A stretch of DNA of 64,000 nucleotides, from contig PMSN01000014.1 of NCBI GenBank assembly GCA_003167555.1, positions 186,001-250,000 of the forward strand, in the 5' to 3' direction. The position numbers were made by a program, and so were the translations under genes. The stretch's first letter is position 1. Every line of letters begins with the position of its first letter. Shown here piece after piece: positions 52,194 to 63,480 of this stretch. Under the pieces are notes generated by a model, which saw nothing but the letters and a program-made list of their open reading frames with translations, was not told where the DNA came from and did not search any database. This DNA is from Spartobacteria bacterium (GTDB lineage: Bacteria; Verrucomicrobiota; Verrucomicrobiia; Chthoniobacterales; UBA10450).

Positions 52194-53708
52194 ATGAATG
52201 ATCGCGGCATCCGTCTCTTACTGCTCGCTTCGGTCTTCACGATCGCGACCTGCGGACTCATCTATGAACTGATCGCGAGCACCGTCGCCAGCTATCTCCT
52301 CGGCGATTCTGTCACGCAGTTCTCCACGATCATCGGCGCTTATCTTTTCGCGATGGGCATCGGGTCGTGGCTCTCGCGTTACGTCGAGAAAGACCTGCTG
52401 CGGGTGTTCATCCAAGTCGAGTTCCTCATCGCGCTCTTTGGCGGTTCGGCGTCGGCCACGCTCTTCGTGTTGTTTGCGCATGTCAGTTCGTTCCGGGTGG
52501 TCCTGTATGCCATCGTGCTGGTGATCGGCACGCTGGTCGGCCTCGAAATTCCTTTGCTCCTCCGGATTCTCGAAGGCCGGCTCCAGTTCAAAGATCTCAT
52601 CTCGAAAGTTTTCACGTTCGATTACATCGGCGCCTTGCTCGCGTCGCTCTTGTTCCCCTTGGTGCTCGTGCCCTACTGCGGCCTCGCCCGCTCGGGATTT
52701 CTCTTTGGGATTTTGAATGGCGCGGTGGGGCTCGTGGCTTTATGGGCGTTGCGCGGCCAGGTGCGAGGCGCGCGCGCGTTGCAGATTCAAGGCATCGTCG
52801 TGCTCGCACTCCTTGGCGCCGGGTTCGCCTACTCGGAGCGGATCATAACGTGGTCGGAAGCTTCCGCCTATAACGAAGAAGTGATTTTTGCGAAGTCGAC
52901 ACCGTATCAACGGATCACGATCACTCGCGGCGGCGACGATCTGCGCCTCTATCTGAACAACAATCTGCAATTCAGTTCGCGCGACGAATATCGCTACCAC
53001 GAAGCGCTCGTGCATCCCGGTCTCGCTCGCTTGCCGAACGCGCGCCGCGTCCTGGTGCTCGGCGGCGGAGACGGGCTCGCCGTCCGTGAGATTTTGCGCT
53101 ATCCGCGAATCGAAAGCATTACGCTCGTGGATCTGGATCCGTCGATGACGCGGCTTTTTTCCACGCAGGAAATGCTGACGCGCCTGAACGCTGGTGCGCT
53201 CACGGCACCGAGAGTCCACGTGGTCAACGGCGACGCCTTCACCTGGCTGAAAGACAACCGGGAGGTGTTCGATTTCATCGTCGCCGATTTTCCCGACCCG
53301 TCGAACTTCAGCATCGGGAAATTGTATACGACCGCGTTCTATCAACGCGCCCGGCACGCGCTCGCGCCCGGTGGCGCGATGGTGATCCAATGCACCTCGC
53401 CCTTCGTCGCGCGCCAATCCTTCTGGTGCATCGACGAGACACTGCGCGCCTGCGGCTTCGTCACGGAGCCATACCACACCCTCGTGCCATCGTTCGGCGA
53501 GTGGGGATTCATTCTCGCATCGCTCCATCCGCTCACGGAGGAGTGGAACTTTCCCGGCGGCCTGCGCTTTATCGACGCGAAAAGTGTCGCGGACCTTTCG
53601 CATTTTCCACCGGACATGGGACGCGTCCCGGTCCAGGTGAATCGTCTGAACAATCAGGCGCTCGTTCGTTATTTCGACGCGGAGTGGGCGCGCTATAGCC
53701 AGCAATGA
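52194..53708 (+). CDS. Membrane-fused polyamine aminopropyltransferase (SpeE-like)
   Basis: A 504-residue protein. Seven N-terminal helices (about 8-215, including CGLIYELIASTVASYLLGDS) precede a spermidine-synthase domain (about 240-500) with LYLNNNLQFSSRDEYRYHEA, the nucleotide site VLVLGGGDGLAVREILRYP, LVDLDPS and ADFPDPSN. The reaction would transfer aminopropyl from decarboxylated SAM (made by SpeD, encoded 1.6 kb downstream) to an amine. The membrane part suggests that the acceptor or product is at the membrane. It overlaps the next gene by 4 bp. Confidence 0.92.
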   Translation: MNDRGIRLLLLASVFTIATCGLIYELIASTVASYLLGDSVTQFSTIIGAYLFAMGIGSWLSRYVEKDLLRVFIQVEFLIALFGGSASATLFVLFAHVSSFRVVLYAIVLVIGTLVGLEIPLLLRILEGRLQFKDLISKVFTFDYIGALLASLLFPLVLVPYCGLARSGFLFGILNGAVGLVALWALRGQVRGARALQIQGIVVLALLGAGFAYSERIITWSEASAYNEEVIFAKSTPYQRITITRGGDDLRLYLNNNLQFSSRDEYRYHEALVHPGLARLPNARRVLVLGGGDGLAVREILRYPRIESITLVDLDPSMTRLFSTQEMLTRLNAGALTAPRVHVVNGDAFTWLKDNREVFDFIVADFPDPSNFSIGKLYTTAFYQRARHALAPGGAMVIQCTSPFVARQSFWCIDETLRACGFVTEPYHTLVPSFGEWGFILASLHPLTEEWNFPGGLRFIDAKSVADLSHFPPDMGRVPVQVNRLNNQALVRYFDAEWARYSQQ

Positions 53709-55291
53709 GGACGACCCGGCGCAAATTCATCGGGACGGTCGGCGCGAGCGCAGCGGCGATGCTGGTCGGCTGCAAGAGAGCGAGAAAATTTTCCGGTGCG
53801 ATTGTCGGCGCGTCGGCGGCGGTTGGTCACCGGCTGCGGCTCGGGAATTTTCCCGCGCCGAGCGAGACGATCGACGCGGGCGTTGTGATCGTTGGCGGCG
53901 GCATCGCGGGTCTCGCCGCGGCGCGCCGGTTGGATCAGCTTGGTCAGCGCGATTTTTTGCTGATCGAGCTCGAGCATCAACCGGGAGGGAACGCCGCCTC
54001 GGGGCAGAACGCAGTCTCAGCGTATCCGTGGGGCGCTCACTACGTCCCGTTGCCGAATGACGAATCGGTCGAGGTGCTCGCGTTGTTCGAAGAGCTGGGC
54101 ATCACCCGCGGGCACGATGCAAACGGCGCGCCGGTCTACGACGAGGAATTTCTTTGCGCCGATCCGATGGAGCGTCTCTTCGATGCCGGCCGCTGGCAGG
54201 AAGGTCTGCTCCCGCAAATCGGAATCACCGCCGACGATCGCCGGCAGTATGAGGATTTCTTCGCGCGAATGGAGAGCTTTCGCTCGATGCGTGGCCGCGA
54301 TGACGGGCCAGCTTTCGCGATCCCGCTCGATCTCAGCTCGCGCGACGCCGAGCTTCTCGCACTCGATGGAAAAACGATGGCCGCCTGGATGACGGAACAG
54401 GGATGGAATTCCGTCCCGCTCCGTTGGCACGTTGACTATAGCTGCCGCGATGATTACGGCGCCGGCATCGAACACGTCTCGGCCTGGGCCGGGGCGCATT
54501 ATTTTGCTTCGCGGCGGGGACGTGCGTCGAATGCGGATCGCGATGCGGTGGTGACCTGGCCCGAAGGCAACGGCTGGCTAGCGAAGAAATTGGCGGCCCC
54601 CTGCGCGACGCGCACGCGGAGCAGCGGGGTAGTATTCAATGTCGAGCAGAGCGACGGCGCCGTGGTTGTCGATTACCTCGATGTCGAACGCGAGCAGAGC
54701 GTGCGCGTGAAGACGCGCGGAGTTGTGTGCGCCGCGCCTCGATTTGTCGCGCACCGAATGATTCGCGATTTACCGGGCGGGAACGATGCGGTCTACTCGC
54801 CCTGGATGGTGGCCAACGTCACGCTCGATCAACTTCCAAGCGGGTCCGGAACGCCGCTCGCCTGGGATAATGTCGCACGCGCGAGCGACTCGTTAGGCTA
54901 CGTCGTGGCCACGCATCAAAATGTCCATCCGGTCCCGCGCGAGACTGTGATCACCCATTACTGGCCGCTCGATGCCGCCGTGCCCGCCGAGGAGAGGCAG
55001 CGCGCGCTCGCCCGCACGCACGCTGACTGGTGCGAACGCGTCGCCGCTGACCTGGATCGTGTTCATCCCGGCATTCACTCCCACATTCGGAACATCGATG
55101 TCTGGGTCTGGGGTCACGGGATGATTCGTCCGGTGCCCGGCTTCATCTGGGGCGGAGCACGAGAAATGATGCAGGAACCGCACGGCCGGATAGTCTTCGC
55201 TCACTCGGACATGAGCGGGATTTCCATTTTCGAAGAAGCATTCACGCGCGGCACGCAGGCGGCCGATGCGCTCGTCGCATTGATCGGATGA
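53705..55291 (+). CDS. Exported FAD-dependent amine-oxidase-like protein
   Basis: A 528-residue flavoprotein. The N-terminus RRKFIG is a twin-arginine signal, followed by a hydrophobic stretch and MLVGC (Cys23), a lipobox-like site, so it may be a Tat lipoprotein. The FAD-binding VVIVGGGIAGLAAARRLDQL (about 60-79) and a C-terminal HSDMSGISIFEEAF match flavin amine oxidase/NAD(P)-binding Rossmann families. Polyamine oxidation is a plausible activity from its setting but is not shown by sequence. ATGA overlaps occur at both ends. Confidence 0.88.
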   Translation: MRTTRRKFIGTVGASAAAMLVGCKRARKFSGAIVGASAAVGHRLRLGNFPAPSETIDAGVVIVGGGIAGLAAARRLDQLGQRDFLLIELEHQPGGNAASGQNAVSAYPWGAHYVPLPNDESVEVLALFEELGITRGHDANGAPVYDEEFLCADPMERLFDAGRWQEGLLPQIGITADDRRQYEDFFARMESFRSMRGRDDGPAFAIPLDLSSRDAELLALDGKTMAAWMTEQGWNSVPLRWHVDYSCRDDYGAGIEHVSAWAGAHYFASRRGRASNADRDAVVTWPEGNGWLAKKLAAPCATRTRSSGVVFNVEQSDGAVVVDYLDVEREQSVRVKTRGVVCAAPRFVAHRMIRDLPGGNDAVYSPWMVANVTLDQLPSGSGTPLAWDNVARASDSLGYVVATHQNVHPVPRETVITHYWPLDAAVPAEERQRALARTHADWCERVAADLDRVHPGIHSHIRNIDVWVWGHGMIRPVPGFIWGGAREMMQEPHGRIVFAHSDMSGISIFEEAFTRGTQAADALVALIG

Positions 55292-55638
55292 AAACGCACG
55301 GACCGTTCGCCAGCCAGATGCTAATCGAGTTGCACGGATGCAAGGCCGAGCTGCTTAATAATCCCGCGGCGTTGAAGGAACTGCTCCTGGAAGCGGTCCG
55401 CCGCGGCCACGGCACCATTGTCACCGACGTTTTTCACACGTTCAGCCCGCATGGGGTAAGCGGAGTAATCGTCATCGCGGAATCGCATGTGGCCATCCAC
55501 ACGTGGCCCGAGCACGGCTATGCGGCCGTGGATATTTTTTCGTGCGGGACAAAGCTGGACCACGCGGCGATCCGCGATTGGATCGCCGCCGGAATGGGCG
55601 CGACGAATGTGGAATGCCGGGAGCTGACGCGCGGTTGA
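55288..55638 (+). CDS. speD: S-adenosylmethionine decarboxylase proenzyme
   Basis: A 116-residue prokaryotic-type (class 1b) proenzyme. Self-cleavage is expected between Glu65 and Ser66 in IAESHVAIHTWPEHGYAAVD, making a pyruvoyl group; His71 and Cys86 (DIFSCG) are the other catalytic residues. It makes decarboxylated SAM, the aminopropyl donor for the SpeE-like protein of this cluster. No ornithine, arginine or lysine decarboxylase is nearby. Confidence 0.96.
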   Translation: MKTHGPFASQMLIELHGCKAELLNNPAALKELLLEAVRRGHGTIVTDVFHTFSPHGVSGVIVIAESHVAIHTWPEHGYAAVDIFSCGTKLDHAAIRDWIAAGMGATNVECRELTRG

Positions 55639-57630: not shown

Positions 57631-57661
57631 TGCCTCGTAGTGTAACGGTAGAATTTCTCAG
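57631..57661 (+). other. Possible tRNA 5' fragment at the left boundary of an integrated element
   Basis: TGCCTCG-TA-GTGTAACGGTAGAAT resembles the acceptor strand and D-arm of a tRNA (Gly or Gln type). No anticodon arm, T-arm (GGTTCGANTCC) or acceptor 3' strand follows. A tyrosine recombinase starts about 90 bp downstream, and tRNA genes are its commonest targets. Confidence 0.35.
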
Positions 57662-57752
57662 CACACTCGCCGCCATTTATCACCCGGCGCGCACCACTGA
57701 AAGCCACTTTTTTACACTTTACGTTTGTGAGACCATCGGAGACTCTGCGCCC

Positions 57753-58790
57753 GTGGCCTCTCTCCGCAGGCATTCTCGCTCTCCGTTCTGGTACTTGCGC
57801 CGACGCGATCTTGATTCTGGCTCTTGGGTTGAGAAATCGACTGGGCTTCGCGCGGACGATCAAGCTGCGACCCACAAAGCTCAACGACTGGCGGAGCGAG
57901 CAAGCGTCGAGGAACAACGGATCGGCGGCCCGAACACTTCGCCAGCTTTCCTCGCATGGGTTCCCGGCTACATCTCGACTCACTGGACCGGCAAAGGCGA
58001 TTCCAGAAGGCGTTACGGCGTAGCCTGGCAAGCCATCAAAGCGTTTCTGGCGGAGCAGGGGATCGTTTATCCGCGACAGGTCAGATATGCTCATGGCGGG
58101 GCGTATATACGCTGGCGAATGGCAACCAAAGTTCACGGTCGGGAGGTCTGCCACAATACGGCCCTGCTTGAAGTCAAATTTCTTTCGCAGTTGATAAACG
58201 AAGCCATCCGGCGCGAGTTCACAGAGTCCAATCCCATCGCGCGCCTCGGGATTGCTCGTGCTCCGCAGAAGTTGAAGCCGGAATTGACCGATGCTGATAT
58301 TGCCAAAATCAGGGCGCGTCTCGCCAGCGAACCGGAATGGATGCGGACCTGTTTTGAAATTGCACTCTACACTGGATGCCGGTTTAGTGAATGCTCGATC
58401 CCGATGGAGAATATCGACTTGGACGGCGGAACTATTCGGTTGCGCGATGCCAAGCGAAAAGAGGACGACCCACGTAAGTATTTTACTGTACCAATTCACA
58501 CGAAGTTGCGCGTGATCCTCAGTAATCTCAAACGTCAAGGAGGCGTCCGTACCTGCAATCTTTCGAGCGACAAGAATGGCCGTATTAACAGCTTCTTTCG
58601 TGCGTGCGGCGTCCAAGCCTCTTTTCACAGCCTGCGCGTCACGTTTGTTACCCGCTGTCACCGGGGCGGTCTTTCCCAAGTCGAGGCCATGCGACTCGTG
58701 AACCACTCCAGTTCCCTTATCCACAGAATTTATTCCCGGCTGAATGTTGAAGACGTGCGGGCTGCTCAGTCGAAGATTCCGCTGCCGTAA
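57753..58790 (+). CDS. Tyrosine recombinase / phage-type integrase
   Basis: A 345-residue site-specific recombinase that would insert and excise the element. The catalytic residues are visible: Arg in ALYTGCRFSE, HSLRVTFVTRC (His-x-x-Arg), His in LVNHSSS, and the nucleophile Tyr in HRIYSRL near the end. The N-terminal part SLRRHSRSPFWYLRRRDLDS is the arm-binding region common in integrases of this type. GTG 57753 is preferred (GGAG 11 nt upstream); the frame is open back to 57588 but that part crosses the tRNA-like fragment. Confidence 0.9.
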   Translation: MASLRRHSRSPFWYLRRRDLDSGSWVEKSTGLRADDQAATHKAQRLAERASVEEQRIGGPNTSPAFLAWVPGYISTHWTGKGDSRRRYGVAWQAIKAFLAEQGIVYPRQVRYAHGGAYIRWRMATKVHGREVCHNTALLEVKFLSQLINEAIRREFTESNPIARLGIARAPQKLKPELTDADIAKIRARLASEPEWMRTCFEIALYTGCRFSECSIPMENIDLDGGTIRLRDAKRKEDDPRKYFTVPIHTKLRVILSNLKRQGGVRTCNLSSDKNGRINSFFRACGVQASFHSLRVTFVTRCHRGGLSQVEAMRLVNHSSSLIHRIYSRLNVEDVRAAQSKIPLP

Positions 58791-58944
58791 CCCTGTCGAG
58801 ATATTCGCGAACCCATGCCACACAGGTTTTCTTGCCGTAGAACCGGCAGCCTTTGCGCTTGAAATTATTGATCTCGTTCGGAGCGAGACCAATCTCAGGC
58901 GCGAGCTTCTTGGGGAATTGCAGCGTGTGTTCGCTCATGCCCAT
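58717..58944 (-). CDS. Small excisionase-like or DNA-binding protein
   Basis: A 75-residue protein on the opposite strand, overlapping the last 74 bp of the integrase gene. ATG 58944 has AAGGGG about 6 nt upstream. The segment LAPEIGLAPNEINNFKRKGC followed by RFYGKKTCVAWVREYL resembles the winged-helix or MerR-like folds of phage excisionases, which is only suggestive. It is the last gene of the leftward operon of the element. Confidence 0.6.
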   Translation of the reverse strand: MGMSEHTLQFPKKLAPEIGLAPNEINNFKRKGCRFYGKKTCVAWVREYLDRVTAAESSTEQPARLQHSAGNKFCG

Positions 58945-58978
58945 TTTGTCCCCTTGCGCTGACGGCCATTGAGTAATT

Positions 58979-59290
58979 TCATGCCGGGAATTTCGACGTG
59001 CGAAACAGTTTCCGATCACGCGGAGAAAGATTTTTGAACCAGCTCTGCATGGCGCCGATCCACACCATCAGGCTCAACCTGGAGAAGGCGTGACGGATGC
59101 GGGGGAAAGAAAGTTTGGCTTCGAGACTAAACCCGTCCTCCGCAAACGCTACCATCTGCATCAAGCCGTAATAGATCGCCTTCCCTTCCACCTCGGGGTT
59201 CTCTCGCAGTTCCCTTTGACGGGTCGATACGTAGGTGTGATACGTCGGGGAATTGCCGATTTCCGATTGGCGATTGGCGATTGTTTTCAT
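58979..59290 (-). CDS. Element-encoded protein of unknown function
   Basis: A 103-residue protein. ATG 59290 overlaps the upstream stop as ATGA, supporting this start. The first 12 residues (NRQSEIGNS) come from a simple repeat, CCAATCGCCAATCGG. The core is helical (GKAIYYGLMQMVAFAEDGF, MVWIGAMQSWFKNL). No domain is recognised. Confidence 0.6.
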   Translation of the reverse strand: MKTIANRQSEIGNSPTYHTYVSTRQRELRENPEVEGKAIYYGLMQMVAFAEDGFSLEAKLSFPRIRHAFSRLSLMVWIGAMQSWFKNLSPRDRKLFRTSKFPA

Positions 59291-59526
59291 TTGTCGGACC
59301 AACCGCGCATCACGAGGACGTAATCCCCTTTTTTTAGTGCGATGAGTTCCCCGTCATAAACGTTCCCGTTGCCATTAAACGGAGCATCGTCGAGGTCGTC
59401 TCCACTCTTGACGGTTGAAGAATCAGAAAGTCGTATCTCACCCACTTCTGTCATGTCGTCGTAAGAGAGCCTGCTGGCCTGTTCGCTCTCTCTGGCCTGC
59501 AAGACATATCCTTTCCCGACGATCAC
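59287..59526 (-). CDS. Element-encoded small protein
   Basis: A 79-residue acidic protein starting at GTG 59526, which overlaps the upstream stop codon. VYDGELIALKKGDYVLVM near the end suggests a small beta barrel. Function unknown. Member of the chain of 4-bp-overlapping genes. Confidence 0.6.
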   Translation of the reverse strand: MIVGKGYVLQARESEQASRLSYDDMTEVGEIRLSDSSTVKSGDDLDDAPFNGNGNVYDGELIALKKGDYVLVMRGWSDK

Positions 59527-59867
59527 GCGGCCACCTCCGTTGCTCCGCCAAACCTGAATGGTTTACCGAACCCACCGCAGCCTGGATCGGTTTTCGGGCG
59601 AAATGGCTTGAGTGGATTCCCCCAAAAGTTTCGATCGATCGCGCACTCGACCTCCAGTTGCAACCGGTGCGGCTTCTTTTCCGGCATCCCGCAGGTCCGG
59701 TTTTGTTTCGCCGGCAGGATAGTCTTGAACTCCGCCGTCACCTTGCGCGCCGCCGCCTGCCGCTTCCACCGTGCCCGCAGTTTTGCCAGACGTTGCTCGT
59801 TCGACATCCGACCGCGTGGTTTGAAGAGAGTGGAGTTCATGGCTTGCCTTGGGGCGAGGGCGGTCAT
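59523..59867 (-). CDS. Element-encoded protein of unknown function
   Basis: A 114-residue basic protein. ATG 59867 has GAGGT four bases upstream and overlaps the preceding stop. A helical segment NEQRLAKLRARWKRQAAARK (about 22-41) and a C-terminal Gly/Pro/Phe-rich part (GCGGFGKPFRFGG) are seen; it could bind nucleic acid. No family is recognised. Confidence 0.6.
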   Translation of the reverse strand: MTALAPRQAMNSTLFKPRGRMSNEQRLAKLRARWKRQAAARKVTAEFKTILPAKQNRTCGMPEKKPHRLQLEVECAIDRNFWGNPLKPFRPKTDPGCGGFGKPFRFGGATEVAA

Positions 59868-60040
59868 TTTACCTCGCAACGTTCTTTTTCTCTGGCGCGC
59901 ACGTATCGCACGTCATGCTTAAAGATTTTGTGCGCAGACCATGTTACGTCGTTGCTGTCTATTTCGCAGCGCGGGGACGGTTTTTCGTCGCTGTCGCCCA
60001 CCCACTGCAAAAAAATAACGTCAGGAATGGGCATTCTCAT
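59864..60040 (-). CDS. 58-residue element-encoded protein
   Basis: A short frame starting MRMPIPDVIFLQWVGDSDEK and ending REKERCEVK. It is linked on both sides by ATGA overlaps (60037-60040 and 59864-59867), so it is very likely translated as part of the operon. A Trp/Cys-containing core (CEIDSNDVTWSAHKI) suggests a compact fold. Function unknown. Confidence 0.65.
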   Translation of the reverse strand: MRMPIPDVIFLQWVGDSDEKPSPRCEIDSNDVTWSAHKIFKHDVRYVRAREKERCEVK

Positions 60041-60246
60041 AACACCTCGAATACCGCGTCTCCTTCGAGCGTCATTCCGGTTTCATTGAGCGCAAATTCC
60101 GCGACCTTGGTTTCATCTCCGAGAGTGGCACGTAACGGACCGGTGTATGGTCTCAGCGCAGTGATGGAGTCACGTCCTGGACGCCACCAGACTTTGATGG
60201 TGTCGCCTATCTTTAATTGCGCAGTTGTTTTCATATTGGTGGTCAT
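60037..60246 (-). CDS. Element-encoded small protein
   Basis: A 69-residue protein. The central LKIGDTIKVWWRPGRDSITAL reads like a small SH3-like or OB beta barrel. ATG 60246 overlaps the stop of the ribbon-helix-helix gene by 4 bp. Function unknown. Confidence 0.6.
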   Translation of the reverse strand: MTTNMKTTAQLKIGDTIKVWWRPGRDSITALRPYTGPLRATLGDETKVAEFALNETGMTLEGDAVFEVL

Positions 60247-60434
60247 TGGCTCACTCCGTTCTTTATTTTGTAGCGGACGCGCTTGAAGTAGGCGTTGAAA
60301 ATGTCTTGCGCTAGTCGTGATTTGGAAACCTCAAGATCGAAGGCGCGTTTCCTCAGGCGCTTCAACAAGTCGGGGGGGAGAGAGATTCCAGATGACTTCG
60401 CCTTTTCCGTTTCGGGGATTTTTACTCTTGCCAT
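60243..60434 (-). CDS. Ribbon-helix-helix regulator (leftward)
   Basis: A 63-residue protein. SGISLPPDLLKRLRKRAFDLEVSKSRLAQDIFNAYFKR fits the strand-helix-helix layout of CopG/Arc-type DNA-binding dimers, with the SKSRL turn at the start of helix B; the quoted piece is split here as residues about 15-34 and 35-52. It is the first gene of the leftward operon and is divergent from a second such protein, so it probably controls the shared promoter region. Confidence 0.75.
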   Translation of the reverse strand: MARVKIPETEKAKSSGISLPPDLLKRLRKRAFDLEVSKSRLAQDIFNAYFKRVRYKIKNGVSQ

Positions 60435-60516
60435 GCCGAACAGTAGTCAATAGTTGGTAAGTGTTGTCAACTATTTAAATTGACAATTGAAAAATTATCA
60501 ATTATTCCTTGGTTTA
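60435..60516. promoter_or_regulatory. AT-rich divergent control region with repeated TCAA sites
   Basis: TCAATAGTT (60448), TCAACTATT (60468), TTGACAATT (60480) and TATCAATTATT (60497) are related half-sites spaced by 12-20 bp. TTGACA at 60480 can be the -35 of a rightward promoter; on the other strand TTGACA (60470 to 60465) can serve a leftward promoter. The region is much richer in A+T than its surroundings. Confidence 0.6.
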
Positions 60517-60750
60517 ATGAATCCGAAGAAGTCGCCGGACGAGAAGGTAGTGAATGCCGGAATCGGCCTACCGCCAAATCTCATTAAACGACTCGACAAA
60601 GAGAAGGGCGATCATTCGCGATCCAAGAAAGCAGCGATTATTTTGCGGGAGTATTTCGACGATCTGGACAAAAAGAAGCGCCCAAAATCCCCGGGTGACT
60701 CGTCCGGCACGAATCGTTTCATCCCCCGTGAACGTGCAAATTCAAACTGA
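60517..60750 (+). CDS. Ribbon-helix-helix regulator (rightward)
   Basis: A 77-residue protein. NAGIGLPPNLIKRLDKEKGD (about 14-33) and SRSKKAAIILREYFDDL match the ribbon-helix-helix fold and resemble the divergent partner (SGISLPPDLLKRL). The charged tail (KKKRPKSP) could contact DNA. ATG 60517 lacks a ribosome site and lies close to the predicted transcription start, so the mRNA may be nearly leaderless. Confidence 0.75.
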   Translation: MNPKKSPDEKVVNAGIGLPPNLIKRLDKEKGDHSRSKKAAIILREYFDDLDKKKRPKSPGDSSGTNRFIPRERANSN

Positions 60751-60780: not shown

Positions 60781-61185
60781 ATGAAAACCCTCAGTTACAT
60801 CATCGCGGCGCTCCTCGTATCTGTTTCCCCTCTCTCGGCCGGCGGCGGCCACGTCTATACGCTGCTGATTCACGATTCGGATCAGGCGTTCAACGTGACC
60901 ATTCAGAGGAATGAATACATGAAGGTTTTGAACTTCACGCAGAGTGGAGGCACGACGCCTGTCTTTGACCCCAGCACTGGCGGATTCGTAGTTACCTACG
61001 GTGCGATTGTCCTTTACCAAGGAGCGAATGGACTGCCCGGAGCGACGATTTTGAACGCGGTTGCGCTCTCAACTTCAACGCAGGTTCCGCACGAAGACAC
61101 TTATATTGCCGGGCCAGCTGTCGTTTATATTGCCCCAGTTTCCGGCGCGGTTTTGGCCCTCAGCTATTTCAGAGGTTCGAATTGA
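60781..61185 (+). CDS. Exported protein of unknown function
   Basis: A 134-residue protein with a signal peptide (MKTLSYIIAALLVSVSPLSA). The mature part is short and beta-rich (HVYTLLIHDSDQAFNVTIQR, GAIVLYQGANGLPGATIL). No domain is recognised. Its position inside the element, between a regulator and a ParB-like gene, is odd for a secreted protein; its stop overlaps the next start (TTGA). Confidence 0.65.
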   Translation: MKTLSYIIAALLVSVSPLSAGGGHVYTLLIHDSDQAFNVTIQRNEYMKVLNFTQSGGTTPVFDPSTGGFVVTYGAIVLYQGANGLPGATILNAVALSTSTQVPHEDTYIAGPAVVYIAPVSGAVLALSYFRGSN

Positions 61186-62048
61186 CCGAGATAATCAATA
61201 TCCCGACTGAGGAAATAAAGTTCCTGATCCACCGCCCACGGGAAGAGGCGGAGTTCGCCATGATCGTGGACTCGATCCGCGAGGTCGGGATCTTGCAGCC
61301 GCTCAAGGGCATCGATATTTCGGATTGGAAACCGGCGGACCGGCGGCGGCCTGATGGAGGGCTCTACCGTTATCTCGCGGGATTTGGCGAGGGGCGCACC
61401 GCAGCCGCGCAGAGGCTTTACACGGAGACCCATGAAGCGCGCTGGCGTACCGTGCCGTTCATCGTGGTCAAAGTGCCAGTAGGCGAATTGCTCACCTGGT
61501 TCCTTAGTGAGAATTTCCAGCGCGAAAAACTGTCGTGGATCGAGATTGCCGAACTGCTCCGGGCGGATTTGAAGAGCGGGATGACGCCGGCGGAACTGGC
61601 GGCGAAGAATCACTACACGCTCAACCACGTCACGAAATTGCTCCGGGTAGTGGGCAAGGCGAGCCCGAAGGTGATGGATGATTTGCGCAAAATGACCGTG
61701 CAACAGGGGGAGACGTTGACCAAGCTGCCGCACGCGAGCCAGGAGATCATCGTCGAGACGCTCCACGAGCATGGGCTACACGGCTCGCAGATGCCCGCTG
61801 TCGTCCACATGGCGCAGGAGCAGGTGGCTCAGACCGGTACGCTCTCCAAGGCCGTGCTGGTGCGCGATATTGCCCGATTGAAACAGAACGTGGCTGATCA
61901 ACGCAAGGTGCTGAAATTGAAACGGACGCATCTGGCGATTGGCCCACAGATTTACGGGGACGACATTTTGCAGGATAAGAAGTTCCTCGCGCTCTTGAAT
62001 GAGCGGGGAATACCGTGGAAACCGTTTATGGAGGAGTGGAAGAAATGA
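61182..62048 (+). CDS. ParB-like nuclease/partition-domain protein 1
   Basis: A 288-residue protein. The N-terminal ParB/Srx-type domain has IREVGILQPLKGIDISD, YLAGFGEGRTAAAQRL and TWFLSENFQREKLSWIEIAE; a helix-turn-helix (TPAELAAKNHYTLNHVTKLL, about 140-160) follows. The box usually written GERR is replaced by GEGR. TTG 61182 with AGAGG upstream is chosen. It probably binds element DNA for partition, replication or regulation. Confidence 0.82.
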   Translation: MTEIINIPTEEIKFLIHRPREEAEFAMIVDSIREVGILQPLKGIDISDWKPADRRRPDGGLYRYLAGFGEGRTAAAQRLYTETHEARWRTVPFIVVKVPVGELLTWFLSENFQREKLSWIEIAELLRADLKSGMTPAELAAKNHYTLNHVTKLLRVVGKASPKVMDDLRKMTVQQGETLTKLPHASQEIIVETLHEHGLHGSQMPAVVHMAQEQVAQTGTLSKAVLVRDIARLKQNVADQRKVLKLKRTHLAIGPQIYGDDILQDKKFLALLNERGIPWKPFMEEWKK

Positions 62049-62518
62049 AGGAAGTCGAGTTGACGGTTATCAGTTTATGGCAGCCGTGGGCGTCGTGGGT
62101 CGCTTGGGGCTGGAAGTCCGTCGAGACGCGGACGCATTGCCGTTTCTCCTCTTTGGTCGGACAGCGGATTGGTATTCACGCAGCTAAGAAGTGGGACCAC
62201 GATGCGCTTAAAATTGCTGAGAGATATTTAGGCACGGGCCAGGTCAAGCAAACCGTCTCGCTCGGTTACGAGCCGCCGCAGGGTATCCTCTGCACGGTTT
62301 TCGTTTTGGCGCATAAGCATTGCGAAATGTCCGACGGTGAAAATGCTTTAATCGAATGCGAGACTTCGCGCTATGGCTTATTTCTTGAGGCGATTCATCG
62401 AATCCAGCCGCCGCTGCGCTGCAATGGGCGGCAAGGAATATGGAGGGAAATCTGTCCGGCTCGCGTTCATGGCTCTTACGTGGGTGGAATTTCGTATTCT
62501 CAACCAGCCCTCTTATGA
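62045..62518 (+). CDS. ASCH-domain protein
   Basis: A 157-residue protein. LTVISLWQPWASWVAWGWK and SVETRTHCRF at the N-terminus are the ASCH signature, a fold of the PUA/YTH group that binds RNA or modified nucleotides; RIGIHAAKKWD and GILCTVFVLAHKH follow. It is common in phages. The start overlaps ParB-like 1 and the stop overlaps ParB-like 2, each by 4 bp. Confidence 0.83.
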   Translation: MKEVELTVISLWQPWASWVAWGWKSVETRTHCRFSSLVGQRIGIHAAKKWDHDALKIAERYLGTGQVKQTVSLGYEPPQGILCTVFVLAHKHCEMSDGENALIECETSRYGLFLEAIHRIQPPLRCNGRQGIWREICPARVHGSYVGGISYSQPALL

Positions 62519-63480
62519 CCACCGCCCCAAAGCAGAAGTGGCGCGAGGTAGCGATCTCGCTGATCGATGTCCCAAAAGAATACGTCCGCAAACAGCCGAA
62601 TGAAGACGCGGATAAATCGCTCTCGGCCTCGGTAAAACTCTCGGGGATCATCCAGCCGCTCGCCGTTGTCCCGAACGGGAAGGGCGGATTCGATCTCGTT
62701 GATGGAACCCGCCGTATGGTCGCCGCGGAAGAGAACGGGCTGGGAACAGTTCCGATCATCGTGAATCACCCGCCAAAGGGAACGACCGGCAAAGCCCTGA
62801 AAGCCTACCGGGACCGGCTCCGCCAATTCCTCAATACGAAGCGGCAAGACTTAACCCCCTCGCAATGGGTAGAGGTAGTGGCCGAAGCGCAAAGGATGTT
62901 CAAGCTCAACAACAAAGAGATGGCCGCACTCCTCCAGGTTGACCCGGCGACGATCACGAATCGGAACCGAATCAAGAATTACGCAGCACCGATCGTGGCT
63001 GCGATTGACCGGGGCGACATTACGTTGCACCACGCGCAAGCCCTGGATGGTTTGAAGCCGGGCGCGCAAGTGAAGGTATTTGAGAAGATGCGGAATGATT
63101 TTGTTAGGGTAAGCGGGCGCGTGTTAAAGGGGCTCGTGCGGGAACAGTTCAATCCGAAATATTACCCGAGAATGTGGGCGGATCCGGAGAAAAGCACAAA
63201 ACGGATTCGGGGGAGCAAGGCAAAACGAGAGCGCCTTATCGAAGCCCGCGCGCCATCCTTGAAAACACGGGCTGAACTCGACCGGCTATTAAACGACGTG
63301 GAGATGTGGCAGACGGAGTTTGAGGAGAACCGAAAAGAGATCGAGCGCGCGAATCTATTGATCCGGTTGGTTGGACCGATTCACCGGGCCGTTTCCAATG
63401 ATGAGACGTTGCTCGATTATGTGGCGAAGAAGTGGCCGATGCACCTCCCGGCGTTGGAGAGGTTCAGTGAGTTAGTTTAG
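62515..63480 (+). CDS. ParB-like protein 2
   Basis: A 321-residue protein. LSASVKLSGIIQPLAVVPNG and DLVDGTRRMVAAEENGL form the ParB N-terminal domain with a GTRR box; KLNNKEMAALLQVDPATITN is a helix-turn-helix (about 140-160). The C-terminus is a charged helical region (VEMWQTEFEENRKEIERANL). It is only distantly related to ParB-like 1. It converges with the methyltransferase gene, the two stops overlapping by 4 bp. Confidence 0.83.
   Translation: MTTAPKQKWREVAISLIDVPKEYVRKQPNEDADKSLSASVKLSGIIQPLAVVPNGKGGFDLVDGTRRMVAAEENGLGTVPIIVNHPPKGTTGKALKAYRDRLRQFLNTKRQDLTPSQWVEVVAEAQRMFKLNNKEMAALLQVDPATITNRNRIKNYAAPIVAAIDRGDITLHHAQALDGLKPGAQVKVFEKMRNDFVRVSGRVLKGLVREQFNPKYYPRMWADPEKSTKRIRGSKAKRERLIEARAPSLKTRAELDRLLNDVEMWQTEFEENRKEIERANLLIRLVGPIHRAVSNDETLLDYVAKKWPMHLPALERFSELV

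Follow-up and report, generated by a model that had tools for sequence, protein, structure and literature searches.

A left-end operon of seven small genes in a Spartobacteria prophage, with an Arc-like gene at its start and a candidate excisionase gene convergent on the integrase gene at its end

Introduction

Do seven small open reading frames (ORFs), packed nearly without gaps beside the integrase gene of a prophage, form a cargo carried by the element, or do they serve its control? The ORFs, g1 to g7, lie on a contig of a Spartobacteria bacterium (NCBI GenBank assembly GCA_003167555.1, contig PMSN01000014.1, positions 186,001 to 250,000), and these 64,000 nucleotides, here called the window, were analysed as one stretch to which all coordinates refer. 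A sequence-only reading of the window had taken the seven genes as candidates for anti-defence or element-control proteins. We consider it rather probable that a switch of ribbon-helix-helix (RHH) proteins, similar to immI of phage P22, drives this operon at the left end of the prophage, and that the operon ends in an excisionase gene. The single parts are of known kinds: an RHH switch, a directionality factor of the winged helix-turn-helix (wHTH) type and a tyrosine integrase. The composition of the operon is best read as new. The seven anonymous ORFs thereby become a control module that can be tested.

Results and discussion

Organization of the seven genes and of the prophage

All seven ORFs are on the minus strand, and translation found no internal stop codon in any of them. 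The operon opens with g1 (60434-60243, 63 amino acids), an Arc-like RHH protein, and proceeds with g2 (60246-60037, 69 amino acids), g3 (60040-59864, 58 amino acids), g4 (59867-59523, 114 amino acids), g5 (59526-59287, 79 amino acids, GTG start) and g6 (59290-58979, 103 amino acids) to the last gene, g7 (58944-58717, 75 amino acids; an alternative in-frame ATG is possible at 58938), the candidate for an excisionase, i.e., a recombination directionality factor. From g1 to g6 each successive pair overlaps by 4 nt (NTGA); g6 and g7 are 34 bp apart. The sequence-only reading had given the same coordinates and four-base overlaps for six small ORFs, the same gap before the seventh, and a member of 58 codons, which is g3; the translation agreed with it in every detail. 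When the 2-kb region was shuffled 3000 times with its dinucleotides preserved, no chain of six ORFs with at least 50 codons and exact 4-nt overlaps arose; the longest had five ORFs and occurred twice. The same count, with TTG starts allowed, yielded a longest chain of five on the plus strand of the whole window, hence long overlap chains are not unique to the g1-g6 locus.

The operon belongs to a 44,331-bp prophage in tRNA-Gln(CTG), bounded by 21-bp repeats; the window stops inside it. The host, with a genome of 4.2 Mb, is probably a member of the Chthoniobacterales (Verrucomicrobiota). The attL core (57631..57651, plus strand) is a copy of the 5' end of tRNA-Gln(CTG), TGCCTCGTAGTGTAACGGTAG, and the attR-side copy is located at the 5' end of the tRNA-Gln(CTG) gene, at 101962-101982 on the scale of the window (L004:4963-4983). 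Read from the left, the prophage starts with the tyrosine integrase gene int (57753..58790, plus strand), followed by g7 to g1 on the minus strand and, on the plus strand, by rhh2, an ORF without a name and two ParB-type genes flanking an ASCH-looking gene; beyond this block lies a long leftward block with lysis, tail, head and replication genes. Alignment with relatives suggests GTG 57753 as the likely start of int, and a longer ORF from TTG 57588 begins outside the element.

Convergence of g7 and the integrase gene

The last gene of the operon stands tail to tail with int, and 74 of the 228 nt of g7 overlap the int 3' end, with the conserved motif and helix-turn-helix (HTH) part of g7 outside the overlap in the window. 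This arrangement was searched from both sides. Relatives of g7 were present in 5 other genomes among 197 of the host's order (its own included), in 21 viral contigs and in 6 named genome contigs, one of which carries the label Alphaproteobacteria. In 32/32 of these loci a convergent relative of the window integrase (39-58 % identity) was found at the 3' side of g7. The 32 loci include 5 duplicates; with the window, 28 distinct loci in 16 clusters at 95 % identity were counted, and in 28/28 the two genes overlap at their 3' ends by 59-221 nt. Adjoining one g7 relative, an ORF (L029:99-722) resembles by eye the end of a group II intron maturase.

To avoid a judgement by g7 alone, the search was also run from the integrase, with the best 80 of 132 relatives, which fell into 63 clusters. 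A convergent small HTH-like gene at the 3' end of int was present in 55 of the 63. It was of the g7 type (E <1e-5) in 17 clusters, 10 of them from contigs already known from the g7 search or their close kin and 7 new, and of a second type in 38 clusters (E <1e-3, within the small ORF set), many of these being close kin and the second-type model having been seeded by nine members. Eight clusters had neither type. In two of them, L104 and L143, the sequence runs out at the stop codon of int (22 and -2 nt left); in four (L067, L110, L112 and L114) the 3' end of the integrase gene is faced, 13-51 nt away, by an RHH-like ORF that may represent a third type in this place; in L098 and L113 a candidate gene was not found at the 3' end of int. 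Further integrase relatives in other genomes (about 34-36 % identity; L006, L008, L009 and the viral contig L063) likewise face a convergent small HTH-looking gene, as judged by eye, and in L007 and L010 (26 %) inspection by eye revealed none. Pfam gave no match for the four convergent genes, and against the g7 profile that of L063 scored no better than E 0.28. Judged from sequence, the overlapping tail-to-tail pair of int and a candidate xis recurs across a broad integrase group. A PHROGs family named 'excisionase and transcriptional regulator', phrog_66, matches 3 of 18 convergent proteins (best E 9.1e-5), with both types pooled in the 18 and the three matches not attributable to either type; the g7 of the window has no match.

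Such conservation would also be expected if g7 and the second-type genes were spurious antisense ORFs, held in place by the integrase on the opposite strand. In favour of this explanation, the overlap of second-type genes with int reaches 272 nt, and a C-terminal tail shared between the types lies inside the overlap. Because of this overlap, selection on the second type was scored where its codons lie clear of int. For the commonest group (23 sequences, 28 codons) pN/pS, the ratio of nonsynonymous to synonymous differences per site, was 0.19 in frame, and the other frames gave 1.30 and 1.81, purifying selection thus being confined to the reading frame. For g7, sequence pairs with pS <0.72 gave ratios of 0 to 0.43 over the first 50 codons; the gene is under purifying selection, and its HTH part lies outside int. 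An artefact of the antisense strand appears very improbable.

The product of g7 is a small basic protein with 12 lysine or arginine against 7 aspartate or glutamate residues (hand count). Its AlphaFold model places helices at residues 14-18, 22-31 and 42-56 and a strand at 39-41, a layout of HTH, strand and long helix. The nearest structures by VIA were MerR-type and excisionase wHTH chains, with best Z of 6.3 and 5.7; the excisionases in this list were 2kvv (Z 5.7), 4j2n (4.0), 8dgl (3.7) and 1y6u (2.6). The modelled fold is consistent with a wHTH protein, but as evidence it is weak. When the PDB was searched by sequence with the family of g7, and likewise with the L094 gene, the only matches were implausible and were discarded. 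According to PMC4111918, Xis of phage lambda converts Int from integration to excision, and PMC11963761 describes recombination directionality factors as highly diverse in sequence and often of the wHTH type. With the wHTH factors RdfS, Pukovnik Xis, Tn916 Xis, TorI and Apl, g7 shares the small size, the basic character and the linkage to a tyrosine integrase, and perhaps the HTH-wing-helix order that its model suggests; it differs from them in having no match to their sequence families and in being encoded convergent with, and overlapping, int. We infer that g7 works like an excisionase, and predict from its sequence and context that it stimulates recombination of attL with attR.

A DNA-binding protein in this position could instead regulate the expression of int or of the early operon, in the manner of Cro or Apl, and be no directionality factor, or not only one. 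Regulatory roles are common among wHTH proteins, Apl of phage 186 is given in PMC7498355 as both regulator and directionality factor, and the very name of phrog_66 unites the two functions. However, the constant partner of g7 is the integrase, whereas the genes upstream vary, and linkage to the 3' end of int by itself gives no hint of int control, since the int promoter would be at the other end. A regulator in place of a directionality factor is possible, yet we regard it as rather unlikely.

The RHH pair and the divergent control region

At the other end of the operon, g1 matches phrog_2639, 'Arc-like repressor' (E 1.8e-4), and stays under the cut-off of Pfam RHH_1 (14.2 of 20.5 bits). Divergently from it is encoded a paralogue, rhh2 (60520..60750, plus strand), aligning to g1 with 46 % identity over 41 amino acids (E 2e-8). 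None of the libraries used gave rhh2 a name; its single-sequence model has two helices placed as expected for an RHH monomer, and its assignment to the RHH proteins derives solely from this model and the similarity to g1. The two genes face away from each other across 85 bp (60435..60519) with inverted repeats, AATAGTTG-11-CAACTATT at 60449-60475 and AATTGACAATT/AATTATCAATT at 60478-60503, which are candidate operators for the RHH proteins.

This resembles immI of P22. PMC11016777 gives Mnt as the repressor of arc and ant there, and Arc as that of mnt; in the window, too, two RHH genes face away from a shared control region. A Bro-N antirepressor-type protein follows the RHH gene in the operon of the g7 relative L038 (E 2.3e-22), and probably belongs to the operons of L046 and L047, where a near-identical Bro-N was recognized by similarity at the edge of the locus; an RHH pair is not visible in L046 because the locus ends inside the Bro-N gene. 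In contrast to immI, the operon of the window ends in a candidate excisionase gene convergent on int.

The genes upstream of g7 relatives form, in general, a same-strand run of small genes which mostly differ between loci; recurrent in many of these runs are DUF551 and a 220-amino-acid family without a name. In L063, a stretch of a 44.6-kb viral contig, the run opens with an RHH gene, holds genes similar to g4 and g5, and ends with the HTH-looking gene convergent on int; the opposite side carries two ParB-type relatives.

The intermediate genes g2 to g6

Between the two ends, g2 to g6 appear as accessory genes of the operon, mostly orphans; g2, g3 and g6 are so throughout. Pfam, NCBIfam and PHROGs yielded no credible match for any of the five. 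The C-terminal half of g4 is 56 % identical to a 60-amino-acid protein of L063, and g5 is 73 % identical to a protein of the same contig; there the g5-like gene follows the g4-like gene, again with a 4-nt overlap. Scans of viral contigs for the single proteins found no relative of g2, g5 or g6, the one relative of g4 in L063 and a 10-residue match of g3 (L064). A tblastn search of INPHARED was negative for g2, g4, g6 and g7 and gave one match for g5 (E 0.9). Among the 197 genomes of the order g3 to g6 were found solely as their own copy, and g2 had two weak 30-residue matches within 600-amino-acid frames. Four matches were set aside as noise: pYEATS for g3 (E 0.018) and PUA_4 for g5 (E 0.22) in Pfam, RmrA for g4 (E 0.049) in PADLOC, and, for g6, similarity over 29 residues with an HNH-looking L063 protein (E 3.5e-4). 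A short tandem repeat resembling CGATTGG (59263-59284) encodes the first residues of g6 (ANRQSEIGN), for which reason this N-terminus may be recent.

The comparison of g5 with its only relative resulted in a nonsynonymous divergence (dN) of 0.22 and a synonymous divergence (dS) of 1.32, a ratio of 0.16 and a pattern absent in the other two frames; g5 is under purifying selection. For the C-terminal half of g4, pN was 0.33, with pS saturated at 0.78. No close homologue was found of g1, g2, g3 and g6. The sequence-only reading had named a lack of purifying selection among homologues as the result that would speak against it; where scoring was possible, g5 and g7 showed the opposite.

Tightly overlapping small orphan genes are typical of anti-defence or host-takeover clusters, and the seven genes could be such a cargo that merely lies beside int. 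The near absence of relatives of g2 to g6 fits this explanation. But the genes at both ends of the operon are of regulator or recombination type, an order kept in relatives, and PADLOC produced no credible defence-related match among the seven, its single match being the rejected one. A pure cargo cluster is therefore unlikely. Of the two roles offered by the sequence-only reading, element control is supported at both ends of the operon, through g1 with its divergent paralogue and through g7, and anti-defence found no support in PADLOC, Pfam, NCBIfam or PHROGs. Its statement that none but the first gene has a recognized function holds for database names, but g7, with its constant integrase partner, stands in an informative context.

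Proposed mechanism

In the mechanism we propose, g1 and rhh2, made from the shared divergent region, would cross-regulate both promoters and so switch the operon off and on. Once repression is lifted, g1 to g7 would be transcribed, probably as a single transcript, through the accessory genes g2 to g6 with g7 last. As a wHTH-like directionality factor, g7 would then turn the convergent Int from integration to excision. The transcripts of g7 and int would be antisense to each other's ends, since the genes overlap tail to tail, and this mutual antisense may tie the expression of both genes together and help to hold the balance of Int to Xis.

Several observations weigh against this reading. No excisionase family in Pfam, PHROGs or NCBIfam is matched by g7; in particular, g7 was not filed under phrog_66 or HTH_17, as it matches neither. 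The confidence of its model is moderate (mean predicted local distance difference test score 67), a Foldseek comparison of the model with the PDB gave no match at E <=0.001 (best E 1.1), and VIA labels similarity at the level of Z 5.7, as reached with a putative excisionase, a common arrangement. Homology between the g7 type and the second type is no more than a possibility: the profile match of their HTH parts is weak, and the better match, in the shared C-terminal tail, falls where int is encoded on the other strand. On the side of the switch, rhh2 scores only E 0.14 with the RHH model. A divergent RHH pair at the start of the run, which speaks for the switch, was present in 9 of the 13 clusters whose upstream DNA spans 2.8 kb or more, but five of the nine had seeded the RHH model, which leaves 4 of 8 as independent support. 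A sigma-70 promoter consensus was not found in the divergent region of g1 and rhh2, and Pfam detected no antirepressor in the operon of the window, a further difference to immI.

Beyond this locus, we tentatively suggest, as a generalization with a minor though real chance of being correct, that in a large clade of phage tyrosine integrases the convergent overlapping directionality gene is retained as a device: mutual antisense would limit int and xis and set integration against excision, and the gene in the place of xis would be exchangeable (of the g7 type, the second type or perhaps an RHH type), the tail-to-tail geometry being kept. A literature search covering titles and the beginnings of abstracts returned no paper on a tail-to-tail arrangement of int and xis, which is no proof that it is unpublished. 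In KplE1 the int and excisionase genes are uncoupled, according to PMC2951348. Should the overlap have a regulatory role, it would add a further route of balancing Int and Xis to the coupled transcription with sib in lambda and the uncoupled control in KplE1. The convergent genes provide candidate directionality factors for integrases mostly of uncultured phages, whose partner gene is mostly unnamed in the libraries searched. More of them may be found by a simple rule, the inspection of the int 3' end for a convergent gene.

Candidate arm-type sites

A candidate arm-type site of the integrase, TTTGTGAGAC, is located at 57724..57733 (plus strand). The sequence TGTGAGAC occurs in 117 kb solely at 57726, 101917 and 101928, the last two beside attR, with about 1.6 occurrences expected per strand. 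The site is suggestive only, because 422 of 3000 random pairs of 300-bp sequences share a 10-mer. All 14 relatives inspected (14/14) have a direct repeat with a period of 10-12 bp in the stretch reaching upstream of int; in host sequence as control, such a repeat was present in 11 of 299 windows of 390 bp, which are shorter than the 1250-bp stretches of the relatives. In 11 of the 14 the repeated unit is CTCCCACA; the CTCCCACA repeats (L037-L062) have a period of 10-11 bp, and in 8 of the 14 loci two such pairs are about 145 bp apart. These repeats are candidate arm-type sites for Int or Xis.

Further genes of the prophage and its surroundings

PHROGs matches in the prophage comprise the large and small terminase, portal, a head protein with protease, tail fibre, endolysin and a replication initiation protein. 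A Pfam scan of 42 accessory prophage ORFs added RusA, a DNA methylase, two ParB_N proteins and a Lar restriction-alleviation protein; at E 0.01 it detected no CI- or C2-type repressor in these 42 ORFs, the packaging and tail ORFs being outside the scan. The ParB_N-type proteins (61182-62048 and 62440-63480, plus strand) are encoded on the rhh2 side of the control region, and L063 has relatives of both (36 % and 33 % identity) in the same place. In the operon at the right end of the prophage, the product of L004:925-1473 (minus strand) has a stretch of the CPFCGGKA type, and the Pfam Lar match (E 6e-9) probably stems from this ORF; it is likely an anti-restriction gene of the prophage, outside the seven-gene operon. 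Next to attL, host genes on the plus strand (52194-55638) look by eye like a polyamine set, with spermidine-synthase-like, FAD amine-oxidase-like and AdoMet-decarboxylase-like members.

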